From the IMG/VR virus record IMGVR_UViG_3300043410_002315, positions 1 to 28,885 of that record: a DNA stretch of 28,885 nt; one strand, 5' to 3'. Position 1 is the first letter of the stretch; each line of letters opens with the position of its first letter. The position numbers and the translations under genes are program-made. Under the pieces are notes generated by a model. It was not told where the DNA came from. It searched no databases and was given only the letters and a program-made list of their open reading frames with translations. Shown piece by piece: positions 4,154 to 24,578 of the stretch. The stretch comes from a virus.

Positions 4154-4750
4154 TTAAAGTTTAAGGTTAGATGGGTCGGTGGCCATATTTGTGCGGATCT
4201 TCTGGGCCAGAGCGTGCATTAGCATCTGGTGGACATCTTCCACCACCCCATAATTATAGGTATTTACCCGCACCATATAATCGGCCAAATCTCCACGGTA
4301 TATCTTACCGCCGTCAAACCCTATAAAAGCCAAAGTTTTCCAACCTTGTTCTCGAGCCTGTTTTAGGGCTTTAACTATATTTGGAGAATTACCGCTTGAT
4401 GAAATGGCTAATAGAACACCAGGAGTATCTTTTAGATATTCAACTTGTTTTGCAAATACATCTTCAAAGCTGTAGTCATTTGATATGGCAAGCATCAACG
4501 GAGCATTTGAAGCCAAACTGATAACTTTGCTAGTCAAATGTGTATCATGTTGAATACCTTTTGTATGATCACAAGCAAAGTGTTCTGATATGGCCGCAGA
4601 GCCTCCATTACCGATTACGTAAATTGGAACATTATTTCTATATGCATCAAGCAGTACTGAAAAAGCCATGAAGACTTCTGAATCATCCACACCTCTGGCA
4701 GCATCATTTATTTTTGTAATATATTCATCAAAGAAGTTAGTGTCGGTCAT
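4154..4750 (-). CDS. gmhA: Sedoheptulose-7-phosphate isomerase (GmhA-like SIS domain)
   Basis: SIS-fold sugar phosphate isomerase of the GmhA type, which converts sedoheptulose 7-phosphate to D-glycero-D-manno-heptose 7-phosphate, the first step of nucleotide-activated heptose synthesis. The substrate loop GNGGSAAISEHFACD (residues 47-61) matches the family, and a second phosphate loop AISSSGNSPN lies near residues 115-124. The C-terminal VEDVHQMLMHAL supplies the His residues expected near the metal site. Length (198) is normal. The gene overlaps the kinase gene by 14 bases and ends the heptose/glycosyltransferase operon. The superfamily is certain; the substrate is inferred from the adjacent HddA-like kinase. 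Confidence 0.88.
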   Translation of the reverse strand: MTDTNFFDEYITKINDAARGVDDSEVFMAFSVLLDAYRNNVPIYVIGNGGSAAISEHFACDHTKGIQHDTHLTSKVISLASNAPLMLAISNDYSFEDVFAKQVEYLKDTPGVLLAISSSGNSPNIVKALKQAREQGWKTLAFIGFDGGKIYRGDLADYMVRVNTYNYGVVEDVHQMLMHALAQKIRTNMATDPSNLKL

Positions 4751-5726
4751 TGTTAAACATTTCTATTGTTGAACCATACTCAGTAAATTGGAAAGGAAAT
4801 CTTTCGTAATTTATCATCTTCTTAGCAAAAGAATAATGTTGTTCTTCTGGAACATAAAATAGCATATATCCACCGCCGCCTGCTCCAAGCAACTTACCAC
4901 CAAGAGCACCAGCTTTCATTCCACATTCATACATTCTATCTATTTCTAAGTTACTTACGTTTGCTGATAACTTTTTCTTTGTATTCCATGAATGATCAAG
5001 TAACTTACCAAATTCATCCAACTCTTTATTCATCAAACATTCAACTGCCAAGCGTGCATATTCTACCATCTTTATAGTATTATCTACAGTATCAGTATTA
5101 TTCTTTAAATTATCAACTTGAGTCGACAAAATACTTGATGCTTGTCGATTAATGCCAGTATTATATATGAATAAGTTGTGATGAAGATTTTGTATTACAT
5201 TATTACCAAGTGGCATAGGTTGAACTGTAGTAGCATTTTTGCTAAAAGATATTACATTAAATCCACCATATGCAGCGGCATATTGATCTTGCTTACCAAT
5301 CGGTTCACCACAGCGTGTAATTTCAATATAAGATGCAACTTCTGCTAGATCTCTCTTATTAAAAGAGAATCCAAGATGTTTACCAAGTGCATTGAGCACG
5401 CCAACTGTAAATGTGGATGATGATCCAAGACCAGTACCTTTTGTAGGCACATCAGAGAAGCTAGCAATCTCGATGTTACTGGTAATGCCTACGTGCTTTA
5501 GCACTTCACGGATGCGGTCATGTTTTATTTCGTCGACCGACTTTGGATATTCCATTTCAGAATATACTAGCTTGATATGATTTGCAACACAGATATTTGC
5601 TGCAATGTATATATGTTTATTGATTGTAGTTGAAAGTACCAGTCCGTTATGATTCTCGTAAAACTCTGGAATATCACTTCCGCCACCGAAGAAACTTATA
5701 CGAAGTGGAGTCTTAGTTACTATCAT
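4737..5726 (-). CDS. hddA: GHMP kinase, heptose-7-phosphate kinase-like (HddA)
   Basis: GHMP-family small-molecule kinase of the HddA type, phosphorylating heptose 7-phosphate at C1. Motif 1 is PLRISFFGGGSDIPEF (residues 7-22); the ATP loop is GTGLGSSSTFTVG (about 96-108); motif 3 is GKLLGAGGGGYMLFYV (about 277-292). Length (329) fits HddA. It overlaps gmhA downstream by 14 bases and the glycosyltransferase upstream by 4 bases, so it is part of one operon. No GmhB-type phosphatase is seen here, so the host may supply that step. Family is firm; exact sugar is inferred. Confidence 0.88.
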   Translation of the reverse strand: MIVTKTPLRISFFGGGSDIPEFYENHNGLVLSTTINKHIYIAANICVANHIKLVYSEMEYPKSVDEIKHDRIREVLKHVGITSNIEIASFSDVPTKGTGLGSSSTFTVGVLNALGKHLGFSFNKRDLAEVASYIEITRCGEPIGKQDQYAAAYGGFNVISFSKNATTVQPMPLGNNVIQNLHHNLFIYNTGINRQASSILSTQVDNLKNNTDTVDNTIKMVEYARLAVECLMNKELDEFGKLLDHSWNTKKKLSANVSNLEIDRMYECGMKAGALGGKLLGAGGGGYMLFYVPEEQHYSFAKKMINYERFPFQFTEYGSTIEMFNNDRH

Positions 5727-6718
5727 GACGTTTTATAAACAAACATTTCACCAGGAATTTTTCTTGACTCTGTTGTAGGATACTTAATAAGCAGATCTTT
5801 CATCAAGTATTCCCACTGACCACTTATCTTAGTAATATTGAATCTTGTATCTGCATATGCTTTAACAAACCCAAGATATTTTTGCATATCATCAGTATTG
5901 ACTACTTGAATTGCGTGGTCAAGATATTGATAAAAAACATTAGCATGTTCTTTCATATCTTGATTGAATTGATACATTGTAGTCAATCCACCAGCGGTAT
6001 CAGGTAGGGCAGCAAGATTTGGATGTACACACATCAACCCAGCAGACATTGATTCCATGAGTACACGGCACGATGTTTCAGGCCAAATGTTTGGATATGC
6101 AAGAATATGTGACTTCAATAGATGTTCACGGAGTACTTCCTGTGGAGCAAACCCATGATATGTCATCTGAGGGTGGTTACGAATTTGTTCGTAGAGTGGC
6201 TCAAACTCTTGATCTTTTTCTTCCCATCCGTAAATCTTAAATGACGAGAAAACATGAAGATGAATATTTGGATATTTCTGAGCCAATACTTCAAATGTAG
6301 GCACAAGAATATTCAGACCACGATGTGGTGTAGAAAAATAGATTAGATTGATAGTATCTTTTGGCTTCTCAGTCTTCTGAAATGGTTCAATGGGAGTTTC
6401 AATAACTGTAAGCTTCTCGTCATATGGCATTCTCAACTTAGTAATAAAGTCATTCATCTGCCAATTTGAACTGAAAACAACTTTGTGAAACTTTCGACGA
6501 CTGTTTGCATTAGCCAAATGCTGAACTTCTGGATCTTCGGGCAAGTCATGTTGCCAATAAATTCGGATCTTTTCTTCATTCAGATCACGCAGTCGTGAAG
6601 GAATGACTTGAAATTCATTTGAAAGTTCTTCTGGAATAAGTTTTGCAATACTGCGTTTAGTAATTTCAGTACCACCTTGTGAGTTTACTGAAATCTCATT
6701 CTCTTCAAACCCCTGCAT
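5723..6718 (-). CDS. Glycosyltransferase, GT4/GT-B type
   Basis: A 331-residue cytosolic GT-B glycosyltransferase, probably moving a sugar from a nucleotide donor to the host surface, a phage protein or DNA. The N-terminal half holds IRIYWQHDLPEDPEV and VVFSSNWQMNDF, typical of acceptor domains. The C-terminal donor domain begins near INLIYFSTPHRGLN and includes ILAYPNIWPETSCRVLMESM, with the acidic residue of the GT4 E-x7-E region. The frame opens with TTG at 6721, but the ATG at 6718 has GAGG 8 bases upstream and is preferred. It lies between a nucleotidyltransferase and a heptose kinase, so an activated heptose is a plausible donor; this is inference. Confidence 0.82.
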   Translation of the reverse strand: MQGFEENEISVNSQGGTEITKRSIAKLIPEELSNEFQVIPSRLRDLNEEKIRIYWQHDLPEDPEVQHLANANSRRKFHKVVFSSNWQMNDFITKLRMPYDEKLTVIETPIEPFQKTEKPKDTINLIYFSTPHRGLNILVPTFEVLAQKYPNIHLHVFSSFKIYGWEEKDQEFEPLYEQIRNHPQMTYHGFAPQEVLREHLLKSHILAYPNIWPETSCRVLMESMSAGLMCVHPNLAALPDTAGGLTTMYQFNQDMKEHANVFYQYLDHAIQVVNTDDMQKYLGFVKAYADTRFNITKISGQWEYLMKDLLIKYPTTESRKIPGEMFVYKTS

Positions 6719-7130
6719 CAATAATCCTCTTTCTCAATTCAGTAGTACTATAGTCATGTCGACGTTTAATATAATCAATTTCTATGCCAAGTTGATTACA
6801 TACAATATGCCCAGTAAAGTTATTTAGTCCTCTATAGTCCTCACCCAAAAATCTTATGTTGATTGGAGTTGTGGCTAATAGATTATTAAGATCTTTTTCC
6901 GTTTCATAAGGAATGATCTTATCAACGTGTAAAGAATTTTCTAATTGAATGAATCTCTCGAACACAGTTTGAATTGGTTTGTTTTTCGAGGAAGGTCTAT
7001 CAATAGTGGGATCTGTGTGTAACCCCACTATTAGATAGTCACATTTAGTTTTACATTCTCTAAGAAGAAAATTATGACCTGCGTGAAACAGATCAAAGGC
7101 TCCACATATGAAGCCAACTTTAAATGTCAT
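6705..7130 (-). CDS. Cytidylyl-/adenylyltransferase-like nucleotidyltransferase
   Basis: A 141-residue HxGH-type nucleotidyltransferase (TagD/HldE C-domain-like). It would join a nucleotide to a sugar or polyol phosphate. The first motif is GAFDLFHAGH (residues 10-19), and the C-terminal signature STTELRKRI matches the family's ST-x-x-LRxRI. RFLGEDYRG is a typical internal strand and loop. It overlaps the peroxiredoxin gene by 4 bases and the glycosyltransferase gene by 14. Together with gmhA and hddA it would complete nucleotide-heptose formation, although glycerol-phosphate activation is an alternative. Superfamily certain, substrate not. Confidence 0.85.
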   Translation of the reverse strand: MTFKVGFICGAFDLFHAGHNFLLRECKTKCDYLIVGLHTDPTIDRPSSKNKPIQTVFERFIQLENSLHVDKIIPYETEKDLNNLLATTPINIRFLGEDYRGLNNFTGHIVCNQLGIEIDYIKRRHDYSTTELRKRIIDAGV

Positions 7131-11382: not shown

Positions 11383-12171
11383 TTATGCTACAGTTCTATA
11401 GCCAATAACATGTGAAGCAGGGAAGTAAGCTACGTTTACTTCTTTGTTCTGATTGCCGCCAAGTACTTTTACGTACTTAACACCATCAATCCATTCATAA
11501 CCAATAAAGAACCCAACGTGACCTGCCCATTGGCTACGGCCGCGCTTAAGTACTACAACATCACCTTCTTTTGGATCAACAGTCTTGGCACCCCAAGTCA
11601 AGAATGAACGTGCCATTAAACTGTCAGTACCTTCAATTTCTGTTCTGCGAAGAATTGCATTAGCAAATGCAGCGCACCATGGAATATTGACTGGGTCAAT
11701 AGGTTCCTGACCTGTATCAGCAAAAAGCTTCTTCAGATCTTTTTTATCTTTTCTAGCATTTTTGCCTTCCCACTTTTTGGCTTCGGCAACAACACCTTTA
11801 ACTGTTGGCTCACAAGTAAACCAACCACACTTCATGGCAACTTCCTTACGCTTTTGATCGCGATTAGGAACTATTTTTGCCTGAGCTACTTTTACAGCAT
11901 CCTGCTTTTCCTGGCGATCTCTTTCTTCAGCCCAGTACTGAGCACTAGATTGTTCATGTGAAGAACTAAATGTTGATTCATTCTTCAAAAAAGGATTGTG
12001 CTCTGGTGCTACCTTGGCAGCCTTTGTTACTCTAGCACGCTTCTTTTTAACTGTCTTCTTTTTCTTGACTACGTGTTCAATAGTAGTCTGTTCTGTAGAA
12101 GTTGGTTTTGCTGCCGCTGGTATCGAAAAAAGTCCGATAGCAACTGAGGCAGCTAAAATTGCCTTATACAT
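11383..12171 (-). CDS. Exported Cys/His amidohydrolase (CHAP/NlpC-P60-like, TIGR02594-like)
   Basis: A 262-residue protein with a Sec signal peptide (MYKAILAASVAIGLFSIPAAA) and a Lys-rich linker (VKKKKTVKKKRARVTK). The C-terminal papain-like domain has IPWCAAFANAIL (C166), WAGHVGFFIG (H218) and LGGNQ (N240), the catalytic Cys-His-Asn triad of peptidoglycan amidases/peptidases. SLMARSFLTWG is typical of the TIGR02594 group. The signal peptide would send it to the periplasm without a holin. It is adjacent to an RlpA-like lipoprotein, so both probably act on peptidoglycan, for lysis or envelope remodelling. Family good, timing unknown. Confidence 0.82.
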   Translation of the reverse strand: MYKAILAASVAIGLFSIPAAAKPTSTEQTTIEHVVKKKKTVKKKRARVTKAAKVAPEHNPFLKNESTFSSSHEQSSAQYWAEERDRQEKQDAVKVAQAKIVPNRDQKRKEVAMKCGWFTCEPTVKGVVAEAKKWEGKNARKDKKDLKKLFADTGQEPIDPVNIPWCAAFANAILRRTEIEGTDSLMARSFLTWGAKTVDPKEGDVVVLKRGRSQWAGHVGFFIGYEWIDGVKYVKVLGGNQNKEVNVAYFPASHVIGYRTVA

Positions 12172-12172
12172 A

Positions 12173-12544
12173 TCATTTTCTCCGTTCTAGGACTTCGATG
12201 AGAAGTTTAGCGGTGCCACTATGGAAAAATCCTAGTGCTTGTGCTCCGCCTCGAGACACATCGATCTCCTTATCTCTGACAAAGGGGCCACGGTCATTGA
12301 CCACCGCCTCGATCGTATTACCGGTCTTAACATTTGTCAATCTTAGCATCGTACCGAATGGAAGGGTCCGATGCGCTACACTGTATTTATTTGGGTCGAA
12401 CTTATCACCATTGGCAGTTTTCTTGCCAGATTGGTACCATGTAGCCGTGCCGTGGTACATCTTTTTGACGGCTGGACTGTCAACAGCTTTGACAGTTGTA
12501 CAACCAGAAAGTACCACGGCACAACACAATGCTAGAAGTTTCAT
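12173..12544 (-). CDS. rlpA: RlpA-like double-psi beta-barrel lipoprotein
   Basis: A 123-residue lipoprotein with lipobox LSGC (C15) and an RlpA-type DPBB domain. RlpA proteins bind denuded peptidoglycan and some cleave it as lytic transglycosylases. Visible family motifs are GTATWY, TANGDKFDP, SVAHRTLPFGTMLRLTN (H58) and VVNDRGPF (D84). From memory the active enzyme of Pseudomonas has Glu in TASGETF; here Asp (D47) occupies that place, so catalysis may be altered. There is no SPOR domain, unlike long host RlpA. It lies 1 base from the exported amidohydrolase, suggesting joint action on the cell wall. Confidence 0.85.
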   Translation of the reverse strand: MKLLALCCAVVLSGCTTVKAVDSPAVKKMYHGTATWYQSGKKTANGDKFDPNKYSVAHRTLPFGTMLRLTNVKTGNTIEAVVNDRGPFVRDKEIDVSRGGAQALGFFHSGTAKLLIEVLERRK

Positions 12545-13812: not shown

Positions 13813-13889
13813 TGGTACCCGCAGTCGGATTCGAACCGACACTTTGAAGATTTTAAGTCTTCTGTCTCTACCTGTTGGACTATACGGGC
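13813..13889 (-). tRNA. tRNA-Leu(UAA) with short variable loop
   Basis: On the minus strand: acceptor GCCCGTA/TGCGGGT (with a G-U first pair), a Leu-like 3-bp D-stem (GTC/GAC) with GG in the loop, anticodon stem GAAGA/TCTTC, loop CTTAAAA giving anticodon TAA, T-arm GTCGG-TTCGAAT-CCGAC, A73 and encoded CCA. The acceptor ends and D-arm resemble bacterial tRNA-Leu(UAA). The variable region, however, is only 5 bases (AAAGT) instead of the long arm of class II leucine tRNAs. Its first 10 bases overlap the 3' end of the upstream gene. Confidence 0.88.
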
Positions 13890-14302
13890 ATTATTTTCTT
13901 AAGGTGGCCGTCTGAAACCTTTACCATGATCCAACTATTATACCATTTCTCGCTCAAAAGTACATCGTTTTCGAACTGATATTTGGCCTCAAAATAGTTG
14001 CATTCACCTTTAGTTGTGCAAAGCCTGAGAATTTCTCTTTTAAAGTTATATGGACCTAGTTTTTCAACGTCTGCTATTAGTTCTTTATTAGATCCATAAT
14101 AATCTTTCCAGTCACTTTCAACTAATGTTCGTTTCTTCTTACCTTTGACTCTTTTAGTCTTAGTTCTTTTAAGAAGCTTCTTACCAATATATTGACGATT
14201 ATCGGTAAGATTAGTTATATTATATACAAAGCCTAGATAATTGTCAAGGAGCTCTGAATCAACTACACTACCATTATACACCCAAGGGTTTTCATATGAC
14301 AT
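13880..14302 (-). CDS. GIY-YIG-like nuclease (Seg-like)
   Basis: A 140-residue protein with GFVYNITNLTDNRQYIGKK (about residues 24-42), a variant GIY...YIG pair. It is followed by a basic stretch (RTKTKRVKGKKKR), YYGSNKELI, and a Glu in NYFEAKYQ, the order expected of the GIY-YIG nuclease domain. Such stand-alone proteins occur in T4-like phages as Seg-type homing endonucleases or as conserved phage nucleases. The last codons and the TAG stop are made by the first 10 bases of the tRNA-Leu gene. It may be a homing nuclease beside a tRNA, a common arrangement, but mobility is not shown here. Confidence 0.7.
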   Translation of the reverse strand: MSYENPWVYNGSVVDSELLDNYLGFVYNITNLTDNRQYIGKKLLKRTKTKRVKGKKKRTLVESDWKDYYGSNKELIADVEKLGPYNFKREILRLCTTKGECNYFEAKYQFENDVLLSEKWYNSWIMVKVSDGHLKKIMPV

Positions 14303-16242: not shown

Positions 16243-18530
16243 ATTTTACAAGCCTCACAGTCGGCATCATCGATTTTACTTGGTTCAAGTTCTGGTTGCT
16301 TGATATCAATTTCACCAGCACCATCATATGTATTAAAATAGTATAACTGTTTACCGCCATACTTATAAAACATCAGGAGGTGACCGATCATCTCTGACAT
16401 CGGGATCTTTTCATCTTCGTAGAACTTAGGATTATACGAAGTGTTGACACTGATACCCTGATCAATAAACTTTTGCAATACAGCGACGATCTTAAGATAA
16501 CCTTCCGGCGACTTTTGATCCCAAAGTAAGTCATACTTATTCTTAAGCTTTCTTACTTCTGGAACAACCTGCTTGAGTACACCGTCTTTACTCTGCTTAA
16601 CTGATACAAGAGAACGAGGTGGCTCGATTCCGTTAGTAGCGTTGCTAATCTGGGCTGAGGTTTCAGATGGCATGAGGGCCATGAGGGTAGAGTTGCGTAT
16701 TCCGTATTTGGTGATGTTGTCATCCAAGAGCGTCCAATTGCAATTATATTGCGGAACTGCAAGTTCGTCCACTTCTCTCTTGTAAGTATTAATAGGAAAT
16801 AAACCCATTGCATATTTTGTTTCCTTCCACTTCGGACACGGACCCTTCTCCTTTGCAAGATCAACAGAAGCTTTGATCAGATAATAAGACCACGCTTCAG
16901 CGTACTGATGAAGTTTGTTCAATCCATCTGCATCGATATGTTGATAAGATAGATCGTTACGGGCAAGCCAATAAGCGAGATTAATAATGCCGACACCAAG
17001 GGGTCGTCGAGCCATCGTAGAGTTCCTTGCTGCCAAGACTGGATAATCTTGATAGTCGAGTAGCTCATCGAGAGCGCGAACAGCAAGAGTGCAAGGACGT
17101 TCAAAGTCAGTAACATCTTTAATCTTTCCCCAGTTGATTGCGGCGAGAGTACACAGTGAGATCTCACCATCTTCATCATTAATATCGTTCAAAGGTTTAG
17201 TCGGTAGGTCAATCTCACAACACAGATTAGATTGCTTGATAGGTGCGAGTTCTTTAATGAATGCACCGTGATCGTTAGCGTGGTCGACGTTCATAAGGTA
17301 GATGCGACCAGTATCTTTACGTTCCTGCATAAACGCTGAGAACAACTCTATTGCAGGGATTGACTTCTTTCTAATTTTTGTCGAGCGCTCATACTTCTCG
17401 TAGAGAATTCTGAACTGTTCAGTATCGACAAAGAATGCATCATAGAGATCAGGAGTATCGTGAGGACTAAACAGAGTGATGTTACCACCGGTAAGTAGTC
17501 TTTCATACATAACTTTGTTGAATTGTACTCCATAGTCGAGTCCTCTGATACGATTGTCTTCTGTGCCTTTATTGTTCTTTAATACTAGTAGGTCCTCAAC
17601 TTCAAGGTGCCAGATAGGATAATAAAGAGTTGCTGCACCGCCTCTGACACCTCCCTGTGAGCAAGATTTAACCGCGCTTTGGAAGTGTTTGTAAAAGGGA
17701 ATGACGCCAGTATGTGTAGTATCGCCATTGCGAATAGCAGAGCCGATAGCACGAATACGACCAGCACCAATGCCAATACCAGCTTTTTGAGAAACATACT
17801 TAACAATCGAGGCAGCCGTTGAAGAAATTGAATCAAGGCTGTCATCTGTTTCGATAAGTACACACGAACTGAATTGCTTTTGAGGCGAACGGAGACCAGC
17901 CATAATTGGAGTCGGCAGCGATATTTCAAAAGTAGATGTTGCATCGTAAAGTTCCTTGATCCATTTTAATCTATCTTCTTTATAGTTACGGAACAGAACC
18001 ATTGCAATGAGCATATATGCCATCTGAGGCGTTTCATAAATCTTGCTTGTAACTCTGTTCTTAATTAAGTATTTACCCCTGAATTGCTCCATACCAACAT
18101 AAGCAATTTGAAAGTCTCGGTCGTGATTAAGTACTCCATTAAGATAATCAAGATCAGTAGCAGAATACCATTCTTCAATATCTTTGTCGTAGTACCCTGC
18201 GCTAATAACATTATGAATATGATCGCGCAGATGAGGAATGTTGAAATCACCATAAACTTCCTTTCGAAGATGATAGTTGATGAGACGGCCTGCCACATAT
18301 TGGTAGCCTGGAACATCATCAGAAATAAGATCTGCGGCTGCCTTAATTAAGGTTTCTTGGATATCAAGAGTTTTGATACCATTATAGAATTGAATGTGGG
18401 ATTTTATTTCCACCTCAGATTCGGAAACTCCATTAATGCCCTCACAAGCCCAAGCCACCACTCTATGGAACTTATTCAGATCTAGTGGTTCTTTTCTTCC
18501 GTCGCGCTTGGTTACCTGGATTTGGGACAT
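16239..18530 (-). CDS. nrdA: Ribonucleotide reductase class Ia, large subunit
   Basis: Catalytic alpha subunit of class Ia ribonucleotide reductase. It has an N-terminal ATP-cone region (QVTKRDGRKEPLDLNKFHRV), SSCVLIETDDSLDSI with an active-site Cys, GIGIGAGRIRAIGS, SNLCCEIDLPT with the thiyl-radical Cys, MPSETSAQISNATNGIEPPR, and a C-terminal CEACKI redox pair that accepts electrons from glutaredoxin. The frame opens at 18575, but the ATG at 18530 (MSQIQVTK) has GAAGGAG 6 bases upstream and is the real start, giving 763 residues, the normal length. It is the first gene behind the promoter at 18555-18583. Confidence 0.97.
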   Translation of the reverse strand: MSQIQVTKRDGRKEPLDLNKFHRVVAWACEGINGVSESEVEIKSHIQFYNGIKTLDIQETLIKAAADLISDDVPGYQYVAGRLINYHLRKEVYGDFNIPHLRDHIHNVISAGYYDKDIEEWYSATDLDYLNGVLNHDRDFQIAYVGMEQFRGKYLIKNRVTSKIYETPQMAYMLIAMVLFRNYKEDRLKWIKELYDATSTFEISLPTPIMAGLRSPQKQFSSCVLIETDDSLDSISSTAASIVKYVSQKAGIGIGAGRIRAIGSAIRNGDTTHTGVIPFYKHFQSAVKSCSQGGVRGGAATLYYPIWHLEVEDLLVLKNNKGTEDNRIRGLDYGVQFNKVMYERLLTGGNITLFSPHDTPDLYDAFFVDTEQFRILYEKYERSTKIRKKSIPAIELFSAFMQERKDTGRIYLMNVDHANDHGAFIKELAPIKQSNLCCEIDLPTKPLNDINDEDGEISLCTLAAINWGKIKDVTDFERPCTLAVRALDELLDYQDYPVLAARNSTMARRPLGVGIINLAYWLARNDLSYQHIDADGLNKLHQYAEAWSYYLIKASVDLAKEKGPCPKWKETKYAMGLFPINTYKREVDELAVPQYNCNWTLLDDNITKYGIRNSTLMALMPSETSAQISNATNGIEPPRSLVSVKQSKDGVLKQVVPEVRKLKNKYDLLWDQKSPEGYLKIVAVLQKFIDQGISVNTSYNPKFYEDEKIPMSEMIGHLLMFYKYGGKQLYYFNTYDGAGEIDIKQPELEPSKIDDADCEACKI

Positions 18531-18607: not shown

Positions 18608-18895
18608 ATGGATATAAATGCGTTTTTCAAATTAATAGCGGATGTAGGTTTTCCTATTGCAGCCGCTTGTGCTATGGGCTATTTTATTTTTCTAACAATT
18701 AAGTTTATTCTCGACGGTGTGATGAGCAGTGTCCAAGGCCTCAGTGGTATCATTACTGCGCTCGACAACCGAGTTAAGACGATGAATCATGACGTCATAC
18801 GAATCGACACTCTCGTTTCCAACGTTATGGGTGTTAAACCTGACACTGACCGTATTGCCAGAGCGGACGGCAAAAACGATGCAAGAAGGGACTGA
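18608..18895 (+). CDS. Small membrane protein, holin-like paralogue 1
   Basis: A 95-residue protein with one N-terminal membrane helix: LIADVGFPIAAACAMGYFIF, extended by LTIKFIL, then an amphipathic segment ALDNRVKTMNHDVIRIDTL and a charged tail. The ATG at 18608 has AGGTGG directly upstream; the longer frame from 18485 would run into the divergent nrdA promoter and is rejected. The next gene has the same layout (GFPI-AAA-MGY, then ALIDRIRMLDNDLIRL), so the two are tandem paralogues. They are the only plus-strand genes and follow a late box. A holin/antiholin-like or virion membrane role is possible; not demonstrated. Confidence 0.75.
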   Translation: MDINAFFKLIADVGFPIAAACAMGYFIFLTIKFILDGVMSSVQGLSGIITALDNRVKTMNHDVIRIDTLVSNVMGVKPDTDRIARADGKNDARRD

Positions 18896-18897
18896 TA

Positions 18898-19236
18898 ATG
18901 GGTAATGTAGCTGATCTAATTGCAAAATATGGCTTCCCTATCGTTGCTGCGGCAGGTATGGGTTATATGATTTATTATGTTTGGACTTGGGCGACTACTA
19001 TAGTCAAACCAGTTCTTAAAGATGCTAACACTGTACTTATAGCACTCATAGATCGTATCCGCATGCTTGACAATGACTTGATTCGTCTTAACCAAAAAGT
19101 TAACATAGTACTTATGTTACGCGAAATGGAACGCGATGAGTTATTAACAAAAGCGAGCGAGTTCCGAAAGGCTGAGAAGAGGGCCAAACGCGGCCCAAAG
19201 AAGAAGGCCGGCGCTGACGAAGAAAAGTCCAGCTAA
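18898..19236 (+). CDS. Small membrane protein, holin-like paralogue 2
   Basis: A 112-residue paralogue of the preceding gene, 2 bases downstream (TGATAATG junction). One membrane helix (YGFPIVAAAGMGYMIYYVWT) is followed by an amphipathic coiled segment (LIALIDRIRMLDNDLIRLNQ) and a strongly basic tail (KRAKRGPKKKAG). From memory, proteins with GFPI...MGYFIYY and RIRMLDNDLIRLN are frequent in marine phages and resemble the short YvrJ/BhlA-type holin-like proteins. It ends 13 bases from the convergent stop of the cyclase gene, and no terminator is visible between them. Confidence 0.78.
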   Translation: MGNVADLIAKYGFPIVAAAGMGYMIYYVWTWATTIVKPVLKDANTVLIALIDRIRMLDNDLIRLNQKVNIVLMLREMERDELLTKASEFRKAEKRAKRGPKKKAGADEEKSS

Positions 19237-19249
19237 CCAGTAAATTAGT

Positions 19250-21313
19250 TCACTTACTTGTAGCTCTGTATATTCCATCCCAGTCTGCTCCCGGTGGGTT
19301 GTGCATAAACTCTTGCACTCTTTCCATCATCATCTCGTAGTATTCTCTCATCTCGCCACCAAAAGCGTTTTGTAGAGTCAAATAATACTCATACAATTTT
19401 GTCCACTCTTGCGCACGATAAAGCTTTATAAAGTCTTCATGAGTACGAGAATAAGCAACGTTAGTGCTGTTCCTAGGAACAATCGTATAAATGTTAACAC
19501 CCTCAGTTTTTCCTTTAACAGCAATACAATCTAATTCTAAGCAAAGATATTCATCTTTTACTAGTTCATATGTACGTTGGCCAATAACCATTTTCACATG
19601 GTATGGTTTTGATTGTCCTTCAAGGCGTGATGCAAGGTTAACAGTATCACCGAGACAAGTATAATCGAATCTTTGAGAAGATCCCATGTTTCCCACCACA
19701 ACACTGCCCGTATTAATACCAAGCCCCATACCAAAAGGAGGAACACCTTCCAGCGCAATCTCTTTATTAAATCTATCCAAGTCACCCAACATCTCCAATG
19801 CTGTTTTAACTGCGTGTTTTGCATGTTCTGCATCATCTAATGGAGCATTCCAAAATGCCATTTGTGCATCGCCGATATACTTATCTAGTGTACCTTCATT
19901 ATCAAGAATCTTTGCAGTCATCGCCGTCATGTAACGGTTCATAATTTCAGTAAGACCTTGCACATTAGTGCCATAATGCTCAGATATGCTAGTAAAACCG
20001 CGAACATCAGTGAACATGATCGAGAGCTCACGTGTTTCTCCTCCCAACTTTAGTAAATCTGGATTCTCTTGCAATTTTTCTACCATTGCTGGAGATAGGT
20101 AAGTACCAAATTGCTTTTTAATCTGTTGCTTTAATCTGAATTCACGAGCAAAATTATTGAATACCAGGTGTCCGAAAACCACAACCCCTGATACCAATAT
20201 ATAACTAGGATCCCATAATTGCATATAATTCGTAAATGCAAAATATGATCCATAACCAATAAGGAAAATAAAAGATGCAAACAGAGGTATGGTCCAAAAG
20301 ACCGAAGTACGTGGTACTAGAAATAGCAATGTGCTGCACAGTATTAGCAACAACAATCCTTCTAGTAGCCTACTCTCTGGTAACCTACTAATAGAAGTAC
20401 CATCAATAACAGTCTGGAGAGCATTGGCTTGTATTTCATGAGCCCATTTCTCTCCAGTTGGTGTGGCTATAATACCACCAACACCTTCAATAGTTAATCC
20501 AAGAATAACTATTTTACCTTCTATTTTTTCTTTAGTGAGTTCAGTCGCTTCGACACGCTCGAACTTGTTGTTCCAAGTGAGCCAGATACGGCCGTTTTGG
20601 TCTGTTTTAATTGGCGGGAATTGTGGGATACGGACGGCTTCGACACCTGCTTCACCGGTCTTGATTTGATAAGAGGGATCGCCAGCAGCTGTGCGTAAGG
20701 TTTCCAATACGAGAGAAGGATAAAGTGTATCGCCAATCCTAGCCAACATAGGCAGACGGCGAACCACACCATCGCGCTCAGGAGCGCCGGCAAGAAGCCC
20801 CACGCCACTAGCGCTATCTGCCAAACTTGTAAGAGGAGCCACAGCCCCGCGCCAAGTATACAACCATGGATCAGGAGGAGAACCGATAGCAGCAAACCCT
20901 CTGCGAGCTGCATCTGCAGGTCTTGACTGAGCTGTTGGTGTTTGTGATATAACCACTGGAACGGAACGAAAAGCATTTTCAAGATCTTTGTCACCGCCAG
21001 CACGGTCACGTTCAGAAAAAAGTACAGGTACTGCAATAACACCAGCACCCATGGTACGTAAGTTATCAATAGTCTTGGCAATATCTCTACGATCAAAAGG
21101 CCATTGACCAAACTTCTGAACTGATTTCTCACCGAACTCAACAAGTACTACCTCTTCTGACTCTTTTTTATCTAACGATGTAATAAAATAGTCAAAAGTT
21201 TTCAGCTGTAAAGTTTCAACAGGACTTGGATTTATGCTGTAGACAGTAATCAAAAATAATGTCGTTACGACTGCTGTCCACGTGCTCGTAAGTATTTTTC
21301 CAAAAGTTTCCAT
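19250..21313 (-). CDS. CHASE2-domain class III adenylate cyclase
   Basis: A 687-residue membrane adenylate cyclase making cAMP from ATP. Layout: membrane helix near 10-27; CHASE2 sensor facing the periplasm (about 35-310; VVLVEFGEKSV, WPFDRRDIAK, KIVILGLTIEG); three helices near 316-333, 338-360 and 369-386; cyclase domain about 425-612. Catalytic residues are all present: metal-binding D436 (MFTDVRGF) and D482, substrate Lys K478 (LDKYIGDA), T552 for adenine (DYTCLGD), N559 and R563 (NLASRLE). Their spacing (K to D 4, T to N 7, N to R 4) fits active enzymes. Codons for the CHASE2 part (about 20560-21000) are GC-richer than the neighbours, suggesting capture from a bacterium. It is the last gene of the curli operon, 2 bases after a curlin-like gene. 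Confidence 0.92.
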   Translation of the reverse strand: METFGKILTSTWTAVVTTLFLITVYSINPSPVETLQLKTFDYFITSLDKKESEEVVLVEFGEKSVQKFGQWPFDRRDIAKTIDNLRTMGAGVIAVPVLFSERDRAGGDKDLENAFRSVPVVISQTPTAQSRPADAARRGFAAIGSPPDPWLYTWRGAVAPLTSLADSASGVGLLAGAPERDGVVRRLPMLARIGDTLYPSLVLETLRTAAGDPSYQIKTGEAGVEAVRIPQFPPIKTDQNGRIWLTWNNKFERVEATELTKEKIEGKIVILGLTIEGVGGIIATPTGEKWAHEIQANALQTVIDGTSISRLPESRLLEGLLLLILCSTLLFLVPRTSVFWTIPLFASFIFLIGYGSYFAFTNYMQLWDPSYILVSGVVVFGHLVFNNFAREFRLKQQIKKQFGTYLSPAMVEKLQENPDLLKLGGETRELSIMFTDVRGFTSISEHYGTNVQGLTEIMNRYMTAMTAKILDNEGTLDKYIGDAQMAFWNAPLDDAEHAKHAVKTALEMLGDLDRFNKEIALEGVPPFGMGLGINTGSVVVGNMGSSQRFDYTCLGDTVNLASRLEGQSKPYHVKMVIGQRTYELVKDEYLCLELDCIAVKGKTEGVNIYTIVPRNSTNVAYSRTHEDFIKLYRAQEWTKLYEYYLTLQNAFGGEMREYYEMMMERVQEFMHNPPGADWDGIYRATSK

Positions 21314-21315
21314 AA

Positions 21316-21579
21316 TCAGTACTGATTGATGATGTAAGGACTATTAGGGCAAGTACTACCACAAGTGACAGACAGGCTAAAAGACTGAGGCGTTTGGCCT
21401 GATTGGTTGGCGATAACTGAAATAGAGTCTCCGCTAAGAGACAAGTTAATAGAATGGCCAGCACCAGATTGAGTAATAGAAACATTTTGAGTTGCTCCTT
21501 GCAAATTCACTGTTGCATTATTAACAGTCTGCGAATAAGCAGCAGTAGTCATAAGAAGTAAAGCTAAAAATGTTCTCAT
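21316..21579 (-). CDS. Small secreted curlin-like protein
   Basis: An 87-residue protein with a signal peptide (MRTFLALLLMTTAAYS) and alternating hydrophobic/polar strands: NNATVNLQGATQNVSITQSG and AGHSINLSLSGDSISVIANQ. These have the curlin-like N-x-V-x-I-x-Q-x-G spacing. The C-terminus (CGSTCPNSPYIINQY) has a possible disulphide and an aromatic end. It could be a minor fibre subunit or CsgB-like nucleator. Its ATG overlaps the fecR-like stop (TGATG), and the cyclase gene begins 2 bases after its stop. The curlin relation rests on repeat pattern and context, not on strong identity. Confidence 0.7.
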   Translation of the reverse strand: MRTFLALLLMTTAAYSQTVNNATVNLQGATQNVSITQSGAGHSINLSLSGDSISVIANQSGQTPQSFSLSVTCGSTCPNSPYIINQY

Positions 21580-22682
21580 CAGTTACCCTGCTTTATATTA
21601 ATCGTTGTTGTTCCTCTACTATTTACAATCTGTGAAATAGTAATATTTTCCTGAGTAATATTTACTGTTGCACTATTATTGGTAGATAGTGTTACTTCTG
21701 CATATCCATTATTTACTTCGCGATATAATGTTACAAAATCATTTTCAACAAAGTATTTTAAGCCAGTTGCAGCATTGTATTTAGGTAGTAATGCATTATA
21801 TTCTGCTAATTCATTGCCAAGTAATTGCGAAGTAGCTATATCTAATAGATTATATAAAAAATCGGAATCAAGATAATTTCTATCTAATTTATTATATTCT
21901 TTTAGGTAATCTTTACTTAACTCACTATATGCTAATAGATCTTGACCAAGCAAATCTTCATCGAGAAAATTATATGCTTTTGTTACGGTAGTTTCCTGTG
22001 TTTGTATTTGACGAGGAGGTGTGACAATAATAAGATTATTGATTTGATCTAAACTTAGATTTAAAATAGCAGATTGAGGTTTTTGTATTCCAGAATTAAC
22101 AGTAACTGATTCAAATGGTTTTGTTAACCAAATCTTGCCCATAATTGTACTAACAGATATAGATCCAGTAACACAATCACGTTCAATATCTTTCCATCTA
22201 GCAGGACAAGAAGGAAGCAATATAATTGTTGATCTTCCTGTTTCATCTACAGATCCTGAAAAGTCTGTTCCTCTAACACCAATAGTTGCCGTAGGTGTTT
22301 CAACTACAACTTGTTGAGGATCATTCTTTGCTATTTGGCCGGAAGCATATTTGATTGTTCCTAAAGCCATCTTGATTCCAAGTTTACCAGTTTTCTTGGA
22401 ATCATCGTAAACAAAGTTATCAATTACAAGCTTGGAATGCTCGGTTATCTGAACCTTCGTATCATCTCTAAAGGTAATACCTGCTTTAGCATTAGCTGTA
22501 GTAACAATGTCGTTCATCTCCACTTCGGATTGTACCGCAGAAGGAACAACACTGCCAGCTCTTTTAATTTCAGTAGGACCTGTTTGTTCAGTTACCTTAC
22601 CAACATCAGCATTACTGATGGTTGGACTTAACAGTAAGAGCGTTACCAGAACCAGTGATTGTAGAAATAACTTTTGAATCAA
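21579..22682 (-). CDS. FecR-domain protein with C-terminal curlin-like repeats
   Basis: An exported protein with a FecR domain: VQSEVEMNDIVTTANAKAGI, ITFRDDTKVQITEHSKLVID, and ETPTATIGVRGTDFS are the family's strand motifs. A charged Tyr/Leu/Asp-rich middle (LDRNYLDSDFLYNLLD) follows. The last 35 residues (SATVNITQENITISQIVNSR, then TTTINIKQGN) look like curlin repeats. The frame can begin at 22724, but the TTG at 22682 has AGGG 8 bases upstream and yields a clean signal peptide (IQKLFLQSLVLVTLLLLSP). The start therefore lies inside the curlin gene in another frame. In bacteria FecR-domain proteins are often next to CHASE2 cyclases, as here. Secretion through or docking to CsgG is inference. 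Confidence 0.8.
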   Translation of the reverse strand: MIQKLFLQSLVLVTLLLLSPTISNADVGKVTEQTGPTEIKRAGSVVPSAVQSEVEMNDIVTTANAKAGITFRDDTKVQITEHSKLVIDNFVYDDSKKTGKLGIKMALGTIKYASGQIAKNDPQQVVVETPTATIGVRGTDFSGSVDETGRSTIILLPSCPARWKDIERDCVTGSISVSTIMGKIWLTKPFESVTVNSGIQKPQSAILNLSLDQINNLIIVTPPRQIQTQETTVTKAYNFLDEDLLGQDLLAYSELSKDYLKEYNKLDRNYLDSDFLYNLLDIATSQLLGNELAEYNALLPKYNAATGLKYFVENDFVTLYREVNNGYAEVTLSTNNSATVNITQENITISQIVNSRGTTTINIKQGN

Positions 22683-23295
22683 CGCCGCCACCCTGTTTAA
22701 TATCCACTGTATTTGTAGCACCATAGATATTCACATCTGCTTCATGGCCGTTAGTGCCAGCAACACCAGTCTGTTTAATTGCAACATCGTTGCCACCACC
22801 ACCAGCAATTAATACAGTGCTTTTTGCACCGGAAACTGCAGTCGAATCATTCTCAATGTTTACTGTATTATTATCAGTATTAATTGTAACTGTTGAAAGT
22901 GTTAAACCTTCACCATTTTGTGTTACAGTATTATTATCTCCAGTAATAGTATTTTGGATAGTTGAACCTGAACAAGATCCACCAGCACCACAAGCAATAC
23001 CTACAGTATTATTATCACCAGTCACTAGCGAGCTTACAGTTACCCCGTCACCAGATACAGTGACATTGGCAACGTTATTGTTACCAATCTGGTCTATCGT
23101 TACTGTATTATTTTGTCCGTTAAATGACGCTTTTGCACTCGCATTACCTACAGCATTAGTATTACCAGTTTGTGTTATATTAATAGTAGATCCGTCACCA
23201 ATCTGTTCAACATATACACTATTACCTGCTGCATTTGCATAATTTACCATAACCAAGAATGACAATAACGCCATCATTCTTGTTAATAGTTTCAT
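22612..23295 (-). CDS. Curlin-repeat protein (CsgA/CsgB-like)
   Basis: A 227-residue secreted protein with a signal peptide ending in YANA. The mature part is a series of about seven imperfect repeats of 20-30 residues rich in Asn, Gln, Gly, Thr and Val: NSVYVEQIGDGSTINITQTG, NNTVTIDQIGNNNVANVTVS, TVDIKQGGG and others. The V-x-I-x-Q-x-G-x-x-N spacing matches curlin repeats that stack as amyloid beta-solenoids. It is longer than E. coli CsgA (151) and has one Cys pair (ACGAGGSCSG). The gene starts right after csgG, so it is the presumed exported substrate. It is probably the main fibre subunit. Confidence 0.82.
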   Translation of the reverse strand: MKLLTRMMALLSFLVMVNYANAAGNSVYVEQIGDGSTINITQTGNTNAVGNASAKASFNGQNNTVTIDQIGNNNVANVTVSGDGVTVSSLVTGDNNTVGIACGAGGSCSGSTIQNTITGDNNTVTQNGEGLTLSTVTINTDNNTVNIENDSTAVSGAKSTVLIAGGGGNDVAIKQTGVAGTNGHEADVNIYGATNTVDIKQGGGVDSKVISTITGSGNALTVKSNHQ

Positions 23296-24120
23296 TTATT
23301 TTCCCTTCTTGAAGCTCCATAATTTTTTCTGAACGCCTTCTTTAACCATTTCTGTAACGGCTGCCTCAATCGCAATTCTTACGGCATATGTTGTAGGTTC
23401 ATTGATAGATGAACCAGCTTCAAACTCTACTGACTTTGTGCCAGCATCAACAAACTTTAAAACGTTGGTATTCACACCAGTACTATAAATTGTTTTAGTA
23501 ACACCAGTTGATAAAAGTATTTCTCCGGTATTTATAGATATTAACCTTAGCATAATGGTTACTTCGTCTTTTCGGTATTCTTGGGATGCTCCCACACCAA
23601 GAAACCTAGCACCAATACCACCGCTACCAAGATTAGAATCATATCCAACAATTCCGCCATCTATCATAATCCCTGCTACAATAAGAGGAGTAAGAGGCTT
23701 TGCCTGATCCTTCTCATATAATTCTCTCTGACTTCTAATCAGCTGACGTTCTTTAACTAAGTTTTCAAGAGCTACACGTTCAACTGGCATAAACCAGATA
23801 CCTTTACCTGCATCTTGTAATGCCTTAATTAAAAGAACTTCACCACCCTGTGTTACCGCAGAACTGAACGATGCATAGTTTTGTGTCGGTTTTCTTTGAC
23901 CTGTTAAATCAGCAAACTTATAAACAGCAATAGGAATTCTAGGTCCGTCCGGCGGCGTAAGATTTACTAATTCATTAAAACGCTTTGAAGTCTTAATGGG
24001 TTCAGGTGCTTCAGAATATGGTTCAATAGTCTTTTTAGTAGTTACACCTTGACCTGAACAACTTGCAACAAGTATTCCAGCAAATAAAGCAATCCATAAT
24101 CTCTTTAATTTTCTTACCAC
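23296..24120 (-). CDS. csgG: CsgG, curli outer-membrane secretion channel
   Basis: Lipoprotein (lipobox VASC, C21) of 274 residues, the same length as E. coli CsgG (277), which forms a nine-subunit outer-membrane pore for curli subunits. Strong matches along the sequence: FADLTGQRKP, FSSAVTQGGEVLLIKALQDA, FMPVERVALENLVKERQLIR, IMIDGGIVGYDSNLGSGGIG, ARFLGVGAS, STGEILLSTGVTKTI and SINEPTTYAVRIAIEAAVTE. The constriction loop, TQNYASF, is one residue longer than the E. coli YPASNF but keeps the final Phe. It overlaps csgF by 7 bases and precedes the curlin gene by one base. Assignment is firm. Confidence 0.95.
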   Translation of the reverse strand: MVRKLKRLWIALFAGILVASCSGQGVTTKKTIEPYSEAPEPIKTSKRFNELVNLTPPDGPRIPIAVYKFADLTGQRKPTQNYASFSSAVTQGGEVLLIKALQDAGKGIWFMPVERVALENLVKERQLIRSQRELYEKDQAKPLTPLIVAGIMIDGGIVGYDSNLGSGGIGARFLGVGASQEYRKDEVTIMLRLISINTGEILLSTGVTKTIYSTGVNTNVLKFVDAGTKSVEFEAGSSINEPTTYAVRIAIEAAVTEMVKEGVQKKLWSFKKGK

Positions 24121-24551
24121 GCCAGACTCCCATAAGGAACAACCACTTCTGTAACATTACCAGCAGCGTCAGTTATTCTAAGAGTAATATTTGACCCATC
24201 AGATGACCATGCAACATTATTTGTTGCAATATCAAAAGATCCAGATGTATTACCGTTATCTGAAAAAAGCTGTTCTGCTATCTTTTGTGATAAGGTTGCA
24301 TAAACACGGCTTTCCAAGTTGTTCAAGAACTTAGCTAAGTTGGTGTTTTTAGCATCAGACGCAGCTTTGGCAGCTTCAGCTTTTTGATCATCAATTTGCT
24401 TCTGCTTTCTTGTTTGCTCTAAATTCTCAATAGTTAAAACATGAGAAGAATAACCAACACCATTAAAGGATGGGCTCTTAAACCCAAACTGCATCTCACT
24501 AGCAAAAGAGGCAGAAGAAATTAGACAGAATACTATAATCATATTCCTCAT
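24114..24551 (-). CDS. csgF: CsgF, curli assembly factor
   Basis: A 145-residue exported protein (signal MRNMIIVFCLISSASFA). In E. coli, CsgF binds the outer vestibule of CsgG and helps nucleation. The mature N-terminus SEMQFGFKSPSFNG parallels the TMTFQFRNPNFGG segment that inserts into CsgG. The helix LESRVYATLSQKIAEQLFSD and the strands FDIATNNVAW and ITLRITDAAGNVTEVVVP follow the CsgF pattern. Length is close to E. coli (138). It is the first gene of the operon, with AGGAGA before its ATG and a late box 20 bases upstream. Assignment is firm. Confidence 0.9.
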   Translation of the reverse strand: MRNMIIVFCLISSASFASEMQFGFKSPSFNGVGYSSHVLTIENLEQTRKQKQIDDQKAEAAKAASDAKNTNLAKFLNNLESRVYATLSQKIAEQLFSDNGNTSGSFDIATNNVAWSSDGSNITLRITDAAGNVTEVVVPYGSLAW

Positions 24552-24570: not shown

Positions 24571-24578
24571 TATTTATA
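24571..24578 (-). promoter_or_regulatory. T4-type late promoter box for the curli operon
   Basis: An exact TATAAATA on the minus strand, with its downstream end about 20 bases before the csgF ATG at 24551. A 6-bp inverted repeat (AGTTAA/TTAACT, 24579-24601) lies immediately upstream of the box. The position directly before the first gene of the operon makes chance occurrence less likely. Confidence 0.65.

Follow-up and report, generated by a model that had tools for sequence, protein, structure and literature searches.

An intact CHASE2 adenylate cyclase gene closes a curli and FecR cassette in T4-like phages and may report on secreted fibres

The window, a 28,885-nucleotide stretch of DNA that constitutes one entire IMG/VR contig (IMGVR_UViG_3300043410_002315), carries a CHASE2 adenylate cyclase gene that, judged from its sequence, is real, intact and functional-looking. 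The gene lies at the end of a phage curli cassette, immediately beyond genes for curlin-like and FecR-domain proteins (Table 1). Phage-encoded cyclases of this type have already been published, together with the neighbouring FecR and the curli cassette itself, and the window is a further member of this group. What is new here is support, drawn from comparative sequence analysis, for what the cyclase might sense, for when it is likely to be expressed, and for a partner that appears to travel with it.

Table 1. Features of the cyclase locus, with positions in the window
Feature	Position	Strand	Basis or remark
phrog_18771 protein, first of a tandem pair, one membrane helix and a coiled coil	18611..18895	+	Homology from about 18611; the listed ORF starts at 18485
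Second phrog_18771 protein of the pair, partial holin-like match	18898..19236	+	Convergent with the cyclase gene
CHASE2 adenylate cyclase (class IIIb), 687 aa	19250..21313	-	ATG start; ORF, Pfam, residues and model
Class III nucleotide cyclase catalytic domain, residues 428-610	19484..20032	-	Pfam Guanylate_cyc, E 4e-21
Periplasmic CHASE2 sensor domain, residues 19-326	20336..21259	-	Pfam CHASE2, E 1e-39
Second, short curlin-like protein, 87 aa, signal peptide	21316..21579	-	Same-place match in many relatives; no Pfam match
FecR-domain protein, N-terminal signal/membrane segment, curlin-like C-terminal strand	21579..22724	-	Pfam FecR, residues 72-166; true start uncertain
Curlin-repeat protein (CsgA/B-like)	22612..23295	-	Pfam
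CsgG outer-membrane secretion pore	23296..24120	-	Pfam
CsgF	24114..24551	-	Pfam
TATAAATA, T4-type late promoter -10 box, 19 nt before the csgF ATG	24571..24578	-	Position conserved

All six canonical class III residues named in the initial annotation can be read in the translation, namely the metal-binding Asp pair (D436 and D482), the Lys/Thr substrate pair (K478 and T552), and the Asn and Arg of the transition state (N559 and R563). D436, K478 and D482 are invariant in 83 phage homologues and, where the remaining positions are covered, R563 is present in 80 of 80 sequences, N559 in 79 of 80 and T552 in 78 of 80. In an alignment, the same Thr, Asn and Arg fall in register with those of the solved class IIIb cyclases CyaB of Pseudomonas aeruginosa (3r5g) and CyaC of Spirulina (1wc1). 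These two enzymes share the catalytic fold and residue set of the phage cyclase, but they have other sensor domains and were solved as catalytic domains only. The modelled catalytic domain matches CyaB with a TM score of 0.82, as is expected of a class III cyclase. Agreement with CyaB and CyaC in both the Lys/Thr pair and the fold makes cAMP a well-grounded prediction for the product.

The annotation had also proposed a CHASE2 sensor with four membrane helices, and this arrangement is borne out by Pfam, hydropathy and an AlphaFold model (mean pLDDT 85). Hydropathy places the helices at residues 7-25, 316-334, about 340-360 and 371-389, and the model places them at 11-27, 314-335, 338-363 and 370-402. 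CHASE2 is thereby set between the first helix and the three subsequent ones, which is the layout of a receptor cyclase. Over its full length the protein matches the phage family phrog_35576 with 735 bits, a score far beyond chance. The gene is under strong purifying selection, with dN/dS between the window and its relative L002 of about 0.04 for the cyclase domain and 0.22 for CHASE2, values obtained with dS near saturation. None of the 83 phage copies contains a stop codon, and each of the 12 phage records tested carries exactly one class III cyclase.

The window comes from a T4-like aquatic phage, and its contig carries several T4-like genes, including those for PhoH, RNase H, NrdA/NrdB, ThyX and primase. 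The order primase-ThyX-csgF...cyclase-NrdA recurs in three other stretches (L020, taken from a 167 kb contig, L027 and L040), and contigs of up to 173 kb are collinear through primase-ThyX-csgF-csgG-curlin-FecR-cyclase-NrdA. Relatives of the cyclase are encoded on more than 599 viral-contig stretches. Moreover, two cultured phages, Melnitz and HTVC008M, have the same cassette including the cyclase, which GenBank annotates in HTVC008M. The window cyclase is 77% identical to its nearest relative and 43-44% identical to those of the two cultured phages. In a quick tree with one long outgroup, 20 phage cyclases group in a single clade (SH-aLRT 99), and the 49 bacterial ones fall outside it. The collinear long contigs, the cultured phages and the separate clade establish that the cyclase is phage-encoded, and they rule out host contamination or a chimera. 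The refutation named beforehand, that the stretch is host DNA wrongly joined to a phage contig, is excluded because the longer contigs are collinear with the window.

Other parts of the contig hold further gene groups. At 11383-12544 (-), a CHAP-domain protein with a signal peptide adjoins an RlpA-like (DPBB) lipoprotein, and these are possible lysis or peptidoglycan genes. Consecutive genes for a sugar-phosphate isomerase, a GHMP kinase, a glycosyltransferase and a cytidylyltransferase at 4154-7130 (-) resemble a heptose/LPS modification module. At 13813-14302 (-), a tRNA-Leu shares 10 bases with an overlapping ORF that weakly matches a homing endonuclease (PADLOC HEase, 3e-5).

Wittmers et al. 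2022 described curli (type VIII secretion) cassettes in phages, comprising genes for FecR, an adenylate cyclase and a histidine kinase, and assigned them an alphaproteobacterial ancestry (PMC9599517). CsgF and CsgG in such phages have also been reported by Zaragoza-Solas et al. 2020 (PMC7029224) and in the Melnitz paper, whose authors argue that the CsgF of phages has diverged and might not build a pore of the classical curli type (PMC9004378). The published reading of FecR is that of an iron regulator. Genes for CsgF, CsgG, the curlin-repeat protein, FecR and the cyclase are found in the window in the order given in 2022, and in these genes and the second curlin, and in their order, the locus is like the pelagiphage cassette of Wittmers et al., HTVC008M and Melnitz. 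However, the window copy belongs to another T4-like phage clade.

Across phage loci, the order csgF-csgG-curlin-FecR-(curlin)-cyclase is almost invariant, and the cyclase comes last. Among 80 loci anchored on CsgG, 16 have sufficient downstream sequence (at least 6.5 kb), and 15 of these carry both FecR and the cyclase. This near-fixed gene order is an addition to the published description. The locus L232, in which a phage curli cassette has FecR and lacks a cyclase in the 7 kb 3ˊ of CsgG, is a natural case of loss.

The two phrog_18771 proteins are about 93-112 residues each, and their sequences indicate one membrane helix and a coiled coil in each. In 66 of 82 cyclase loci their relatives flank the cassette, lying either immediately ahead of csgF or tail to tail with the cyclase gene, and the pair is directly upstream of csgF in all 69 CsgG loci with room for it. 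An independent search with phrog_18771 returned cassette genes in 40 of 41 loci with long flanks. The pair is thus apparently a dedicated seventh cassette component that has gone unrecognised, and an obligate partner. Whereas the pelagiphage pair lies upstream of csgF, that of the window follows the cyclase on the converging strand. In loci of the HTVC008M type, the position before csgF is taken by phrog_18771 proteins of about 93 residues that have no HisKA or HATPase matches, and no kinase domain was detected in phrog_18771 proteins. Their position suggests that these may be the genes that Wittmers et al. reported as histidine kinases in podovirus cassettes. The pair appears to be exclusive to the curli/FecR/cyclase cassette, can occupy either side of it, and bears a weak resemblance to holins.

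The phage FecR protein seems to end in a curlin-like strand. Pfam Curlin_rpt matched none of 30 phage FecR tails, even at E<1, and after this failure the tails were assessed by a motif search and a profile test with controls. A curlin-like motif is present in 90 of 104 distinct tails, compared with 9.9 in shuffled sequences. The best curlin-profile window falls near the C-terminus in 86 of 100 FecR proteins, but in only 4 of 103 CsgG proteins and 1 of 93 cyclases; for CsgF, a control that is itself a cassette protein, the value is fairly high (28 of 88), and hence the test is not perfectly clean. A structure model of the phage FecR protein has low confidence (pLDDT 62) and gives weak support for C-terminal strands.

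Bacterial relatives provided the opportunity to examine the association of FecR with the cyclase apart from phages. Cyclases of the S. meliloti CyaD1/CyaD2/CyaK type and those of Bradyrhizobium and Pelagibius have the same full-length architecture as the phage enzyme, and the phage and alphaproteobacterial proteins share a conserved C-terminal DWDGVY.ATSK tail and a frequent FecR neighbour. They differ in that the alphaproteobacterial proteins are 35-40% identical to the phage cyclase and form a separate clade, and the bacterial FecR partner is often an RTX/cadherin adhesin, whereas the phage partner is curli. In 190 alphaproteobacterial genomes sampled evenly across the class, 71 encode the cyclase, and CsgF scores above the Pfam cut-off in 6 of 385. 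Neither FecR nor the cyclase was found within about 9 kb of any of the six alphaproteobacterial csg loci. The window, unlike these loci, has both, and its cassette is therefore no simple copy of the curli operon of bacteria.

In 19 of 40 sampled alphaproteobacterial cyclase loci the examined flanks contain a FecR gene, and in 10 of these it lies no more than 1 kb away. The background of 114 FecR matches in about 139 Mb predicts about 0.5 in these flanks, so the cyclase adjoins FecR about 40 times above chance, and does so apart from curli. FecR is absent nearby for about half of the alphaproteobacterial cyclases, and in several genomes the sole FecR gene is the neighbour of the cyclase. No curli genes adjoin the cyclase in the 40 sampled loci (CsgG 0), and CsgF occurs in 1 of 15 cyclase-bearing genomes, that of Telmatospirillum, on a different contig and far from its cyclase.

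In the loci of the closest homologues from bacteria, the adjoining FecR often forms the head of a protein of 1,000-3,200 residues with cadherin, Ig and RTX repeats, which are hallmarks of type I secreted adhesins. Taken with the phage cassette, these proteins thus point to FecR on a secreted surface fibre, together with a CHASE2 cyclase, as the element that phages and bacteria probably have in common. In three loci from marine single-cell or uncultured alphaproteobacteria (L102, L148 and L150), a FecR-RTX gene is located about 6-7 kb downstream of the cyclase on the opposite strand. The arrangement is alike in all three, and their FecR domains score best of the bacterial ones against the phage profile. 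More distantly, FecR genes cluster with a CHASE2 cyclase in Campylobacterota (PMC9239204), and FecR likewise adjoins a CHASE2 signalling enzyme in Burkholderia (PMC5192318), as in the phage. These clusters are cellular, no curli genes are described in them, and the Burkholderia output is a histidine kinase.

The initial annotation had guessed that the enzyme responds to secreted amyloid or to the state of FecR. This putative role is supported by the phage gene order, the curlin-like FecR tail and the independent pairing of FecR and cyclase in alphaproteobacteria.

Expression timing is addressed by TATAAATA, the T4 late promoter consensus. Of 126 phage loci, 84, the window among them, have it upstream of csgF, compared with 0.28 expected. 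Elsewhere in the cassette it precedes csgG in 0 of 125 loci, FecR in 0 of 92 and the cyclase in 1 of 99. The exact box is found in 72 of 76 pelagiphage-type loci versus 12 of 50 of the wider relatives of the window. Three copies are present in the window alone, compared with 2.99 expected; this count is not above chance, and so only the conserved position of the box is informative. Melnitz encodes a late-transcription coactivator. The box suggests that the cyclase is made alongside structural and lysis genes.

We tentatively propose, with somewhat less than even confidence, that the gene content, gene order and late-promoter box observed here reflect a module for exporting fibres that is expressed late, and that FecR and CHASE2 within it inform the host of the state of the fibre by means of cAMP. 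The operon would comprise the small membrane pair, CsgF, CsgG, curlin, the FecR-curlin protein, the second curlin and the cyclase, and would be transcribed late from the T4-type promoter before csgF. Curlin subunits would be exported through the CsgG/CsgF pore and presumably form fibres. At the read-out end, the cyclase, whose residue conservation and selection are observed, would be a working class IIIb enzyme, for which we infer catalytic activity and a cAMP product. The periplasmic FecR domain and its curlin-like tail may couple the fibre or the export machinery to CHASE2; here, the association of the two genes is observed, and contact between the proteins is presumed. A change in fibre state would then act as a switch on the dimeric cyclase and change the level of cAMP in the cytoplasm.

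The proposal that CHASE2 controls the cyclase follows two precedents in S. meliloti, where CyaD1 without CHASE2 produces cAMP constitutively (PMC5498481) and CHASE2 cyclases are activated via the outer-membrane protein NsrA (PMC13001267). No cNMP-binding protein that could serve as a phage cAMP receptor was found in 22 phage records, and therefore the target of the signal is probably in the host. A literature search for a host cAMP receptor found none. The nucleotide most likely acts on putative host receptors late in infection, and would adjust host envelope physiology, aggregation or lysis. Some observations speak against this proposal. The scarcity of the exact late box among the wider relatives of the window, the divergence of CsgF argued for Melnitz and the fairly high CsgF control value count against it. 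The S. meliloti FecR gene SMc02177 adjoins cyaD1 and yet is dispensable for plant-signal perception by CyaD1 (PMC5498481), the FecR tails lack a Pfam curlin match, and about half of the bacterial cyclases lack FecR.

It is also conceivable, though unlikely, that the cyclase raises host cAMP to reprogramme metabolism or to induce fibre genes through a CRP-type regulator, with no sensing of fibres. This reading is close to that of Wittmers et al. An intact enzyme under selection is consistent with it, as is the control of E. coli csgD by CRP-cAMP, which is cited in PMC9599517. However, the sensor domain and FecR partner have been kept with the cyclase, the late-promoter box suggests that the cyclase is produced after the time for early reprogramming has passed, these phages lack CsgD (PMC9599517), and the 22 phage records lack a cNMP-binding protein.

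Rather improbable is a late device for envelope or lysis control, in which CsgG forms a pore, the phrog_18771 pair acts in a holin-like manner, and the cyclase times or delays lysis according to envelope state. The partial holin matches of the pair, its tie to the cassette, the late box, and the CHAP and RlpA-like genes on the contig all fit such a device, and a pinholin-like role has been proposed for CsgG of Melnitz (PMC9004378). The holin similarity, however, is weak and extends over no more than about 25 residues, CsgG resides in the outer membrane, and the curlin and FecR genes are left unexplained.

There is very little chance that the product is another cyclic nucleotide (cGMP, cCMP or cUMP) tied to Pycsar-type immunity or its evasion. 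PADLOC PycC models do match the catalytic domain (best E 9e-26), but the match is limited to that domain at 89 bits, compared with 419 bits for whole-length CHASE2 adenylate cyclases, and Lys478 and Thr552 agree with the cAMP-producing CyaB and CyaC. In addition, a Pycsar cyclase is paired with an effector activated by cyclic nucleotides; the neighbours of the window cyclase are curli and FecR genes, with no effector pair. That the stretch is joined host DNA or a decaying passenger has practically no probability left and is already refuted, despite the alphaproteobacterial ancestry of the cyclase family, by the collinear phage contigs, the cassettes of cultured phages, the separate phage clade, the 83 copies free of stop codons, and purifying selection.

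Phages that make second messengers are much less discussed than those that destroy them, and this cyclase family is abundant in aquatic viruses. It is possible, though we hold the view with considerable doubt, that FecR and the CHASE2 cyclase are a general sensor of secreted surface fibres, which bacteria employ with RTX/cadherin adhesins and to which T4-like phages joined a curli exporter and a dedicated membrane pair, creating a late, self-monitoring amyloid export system that would report to the dying host by cAMP. The published account makes FecR an iron regulator, whereas the present analysis favours a FecR-CHASE2 unit linked to surface fibres. Such a unit would likewise account for a gene pair that is widespread in bacteria and has had no signal assigned to it.
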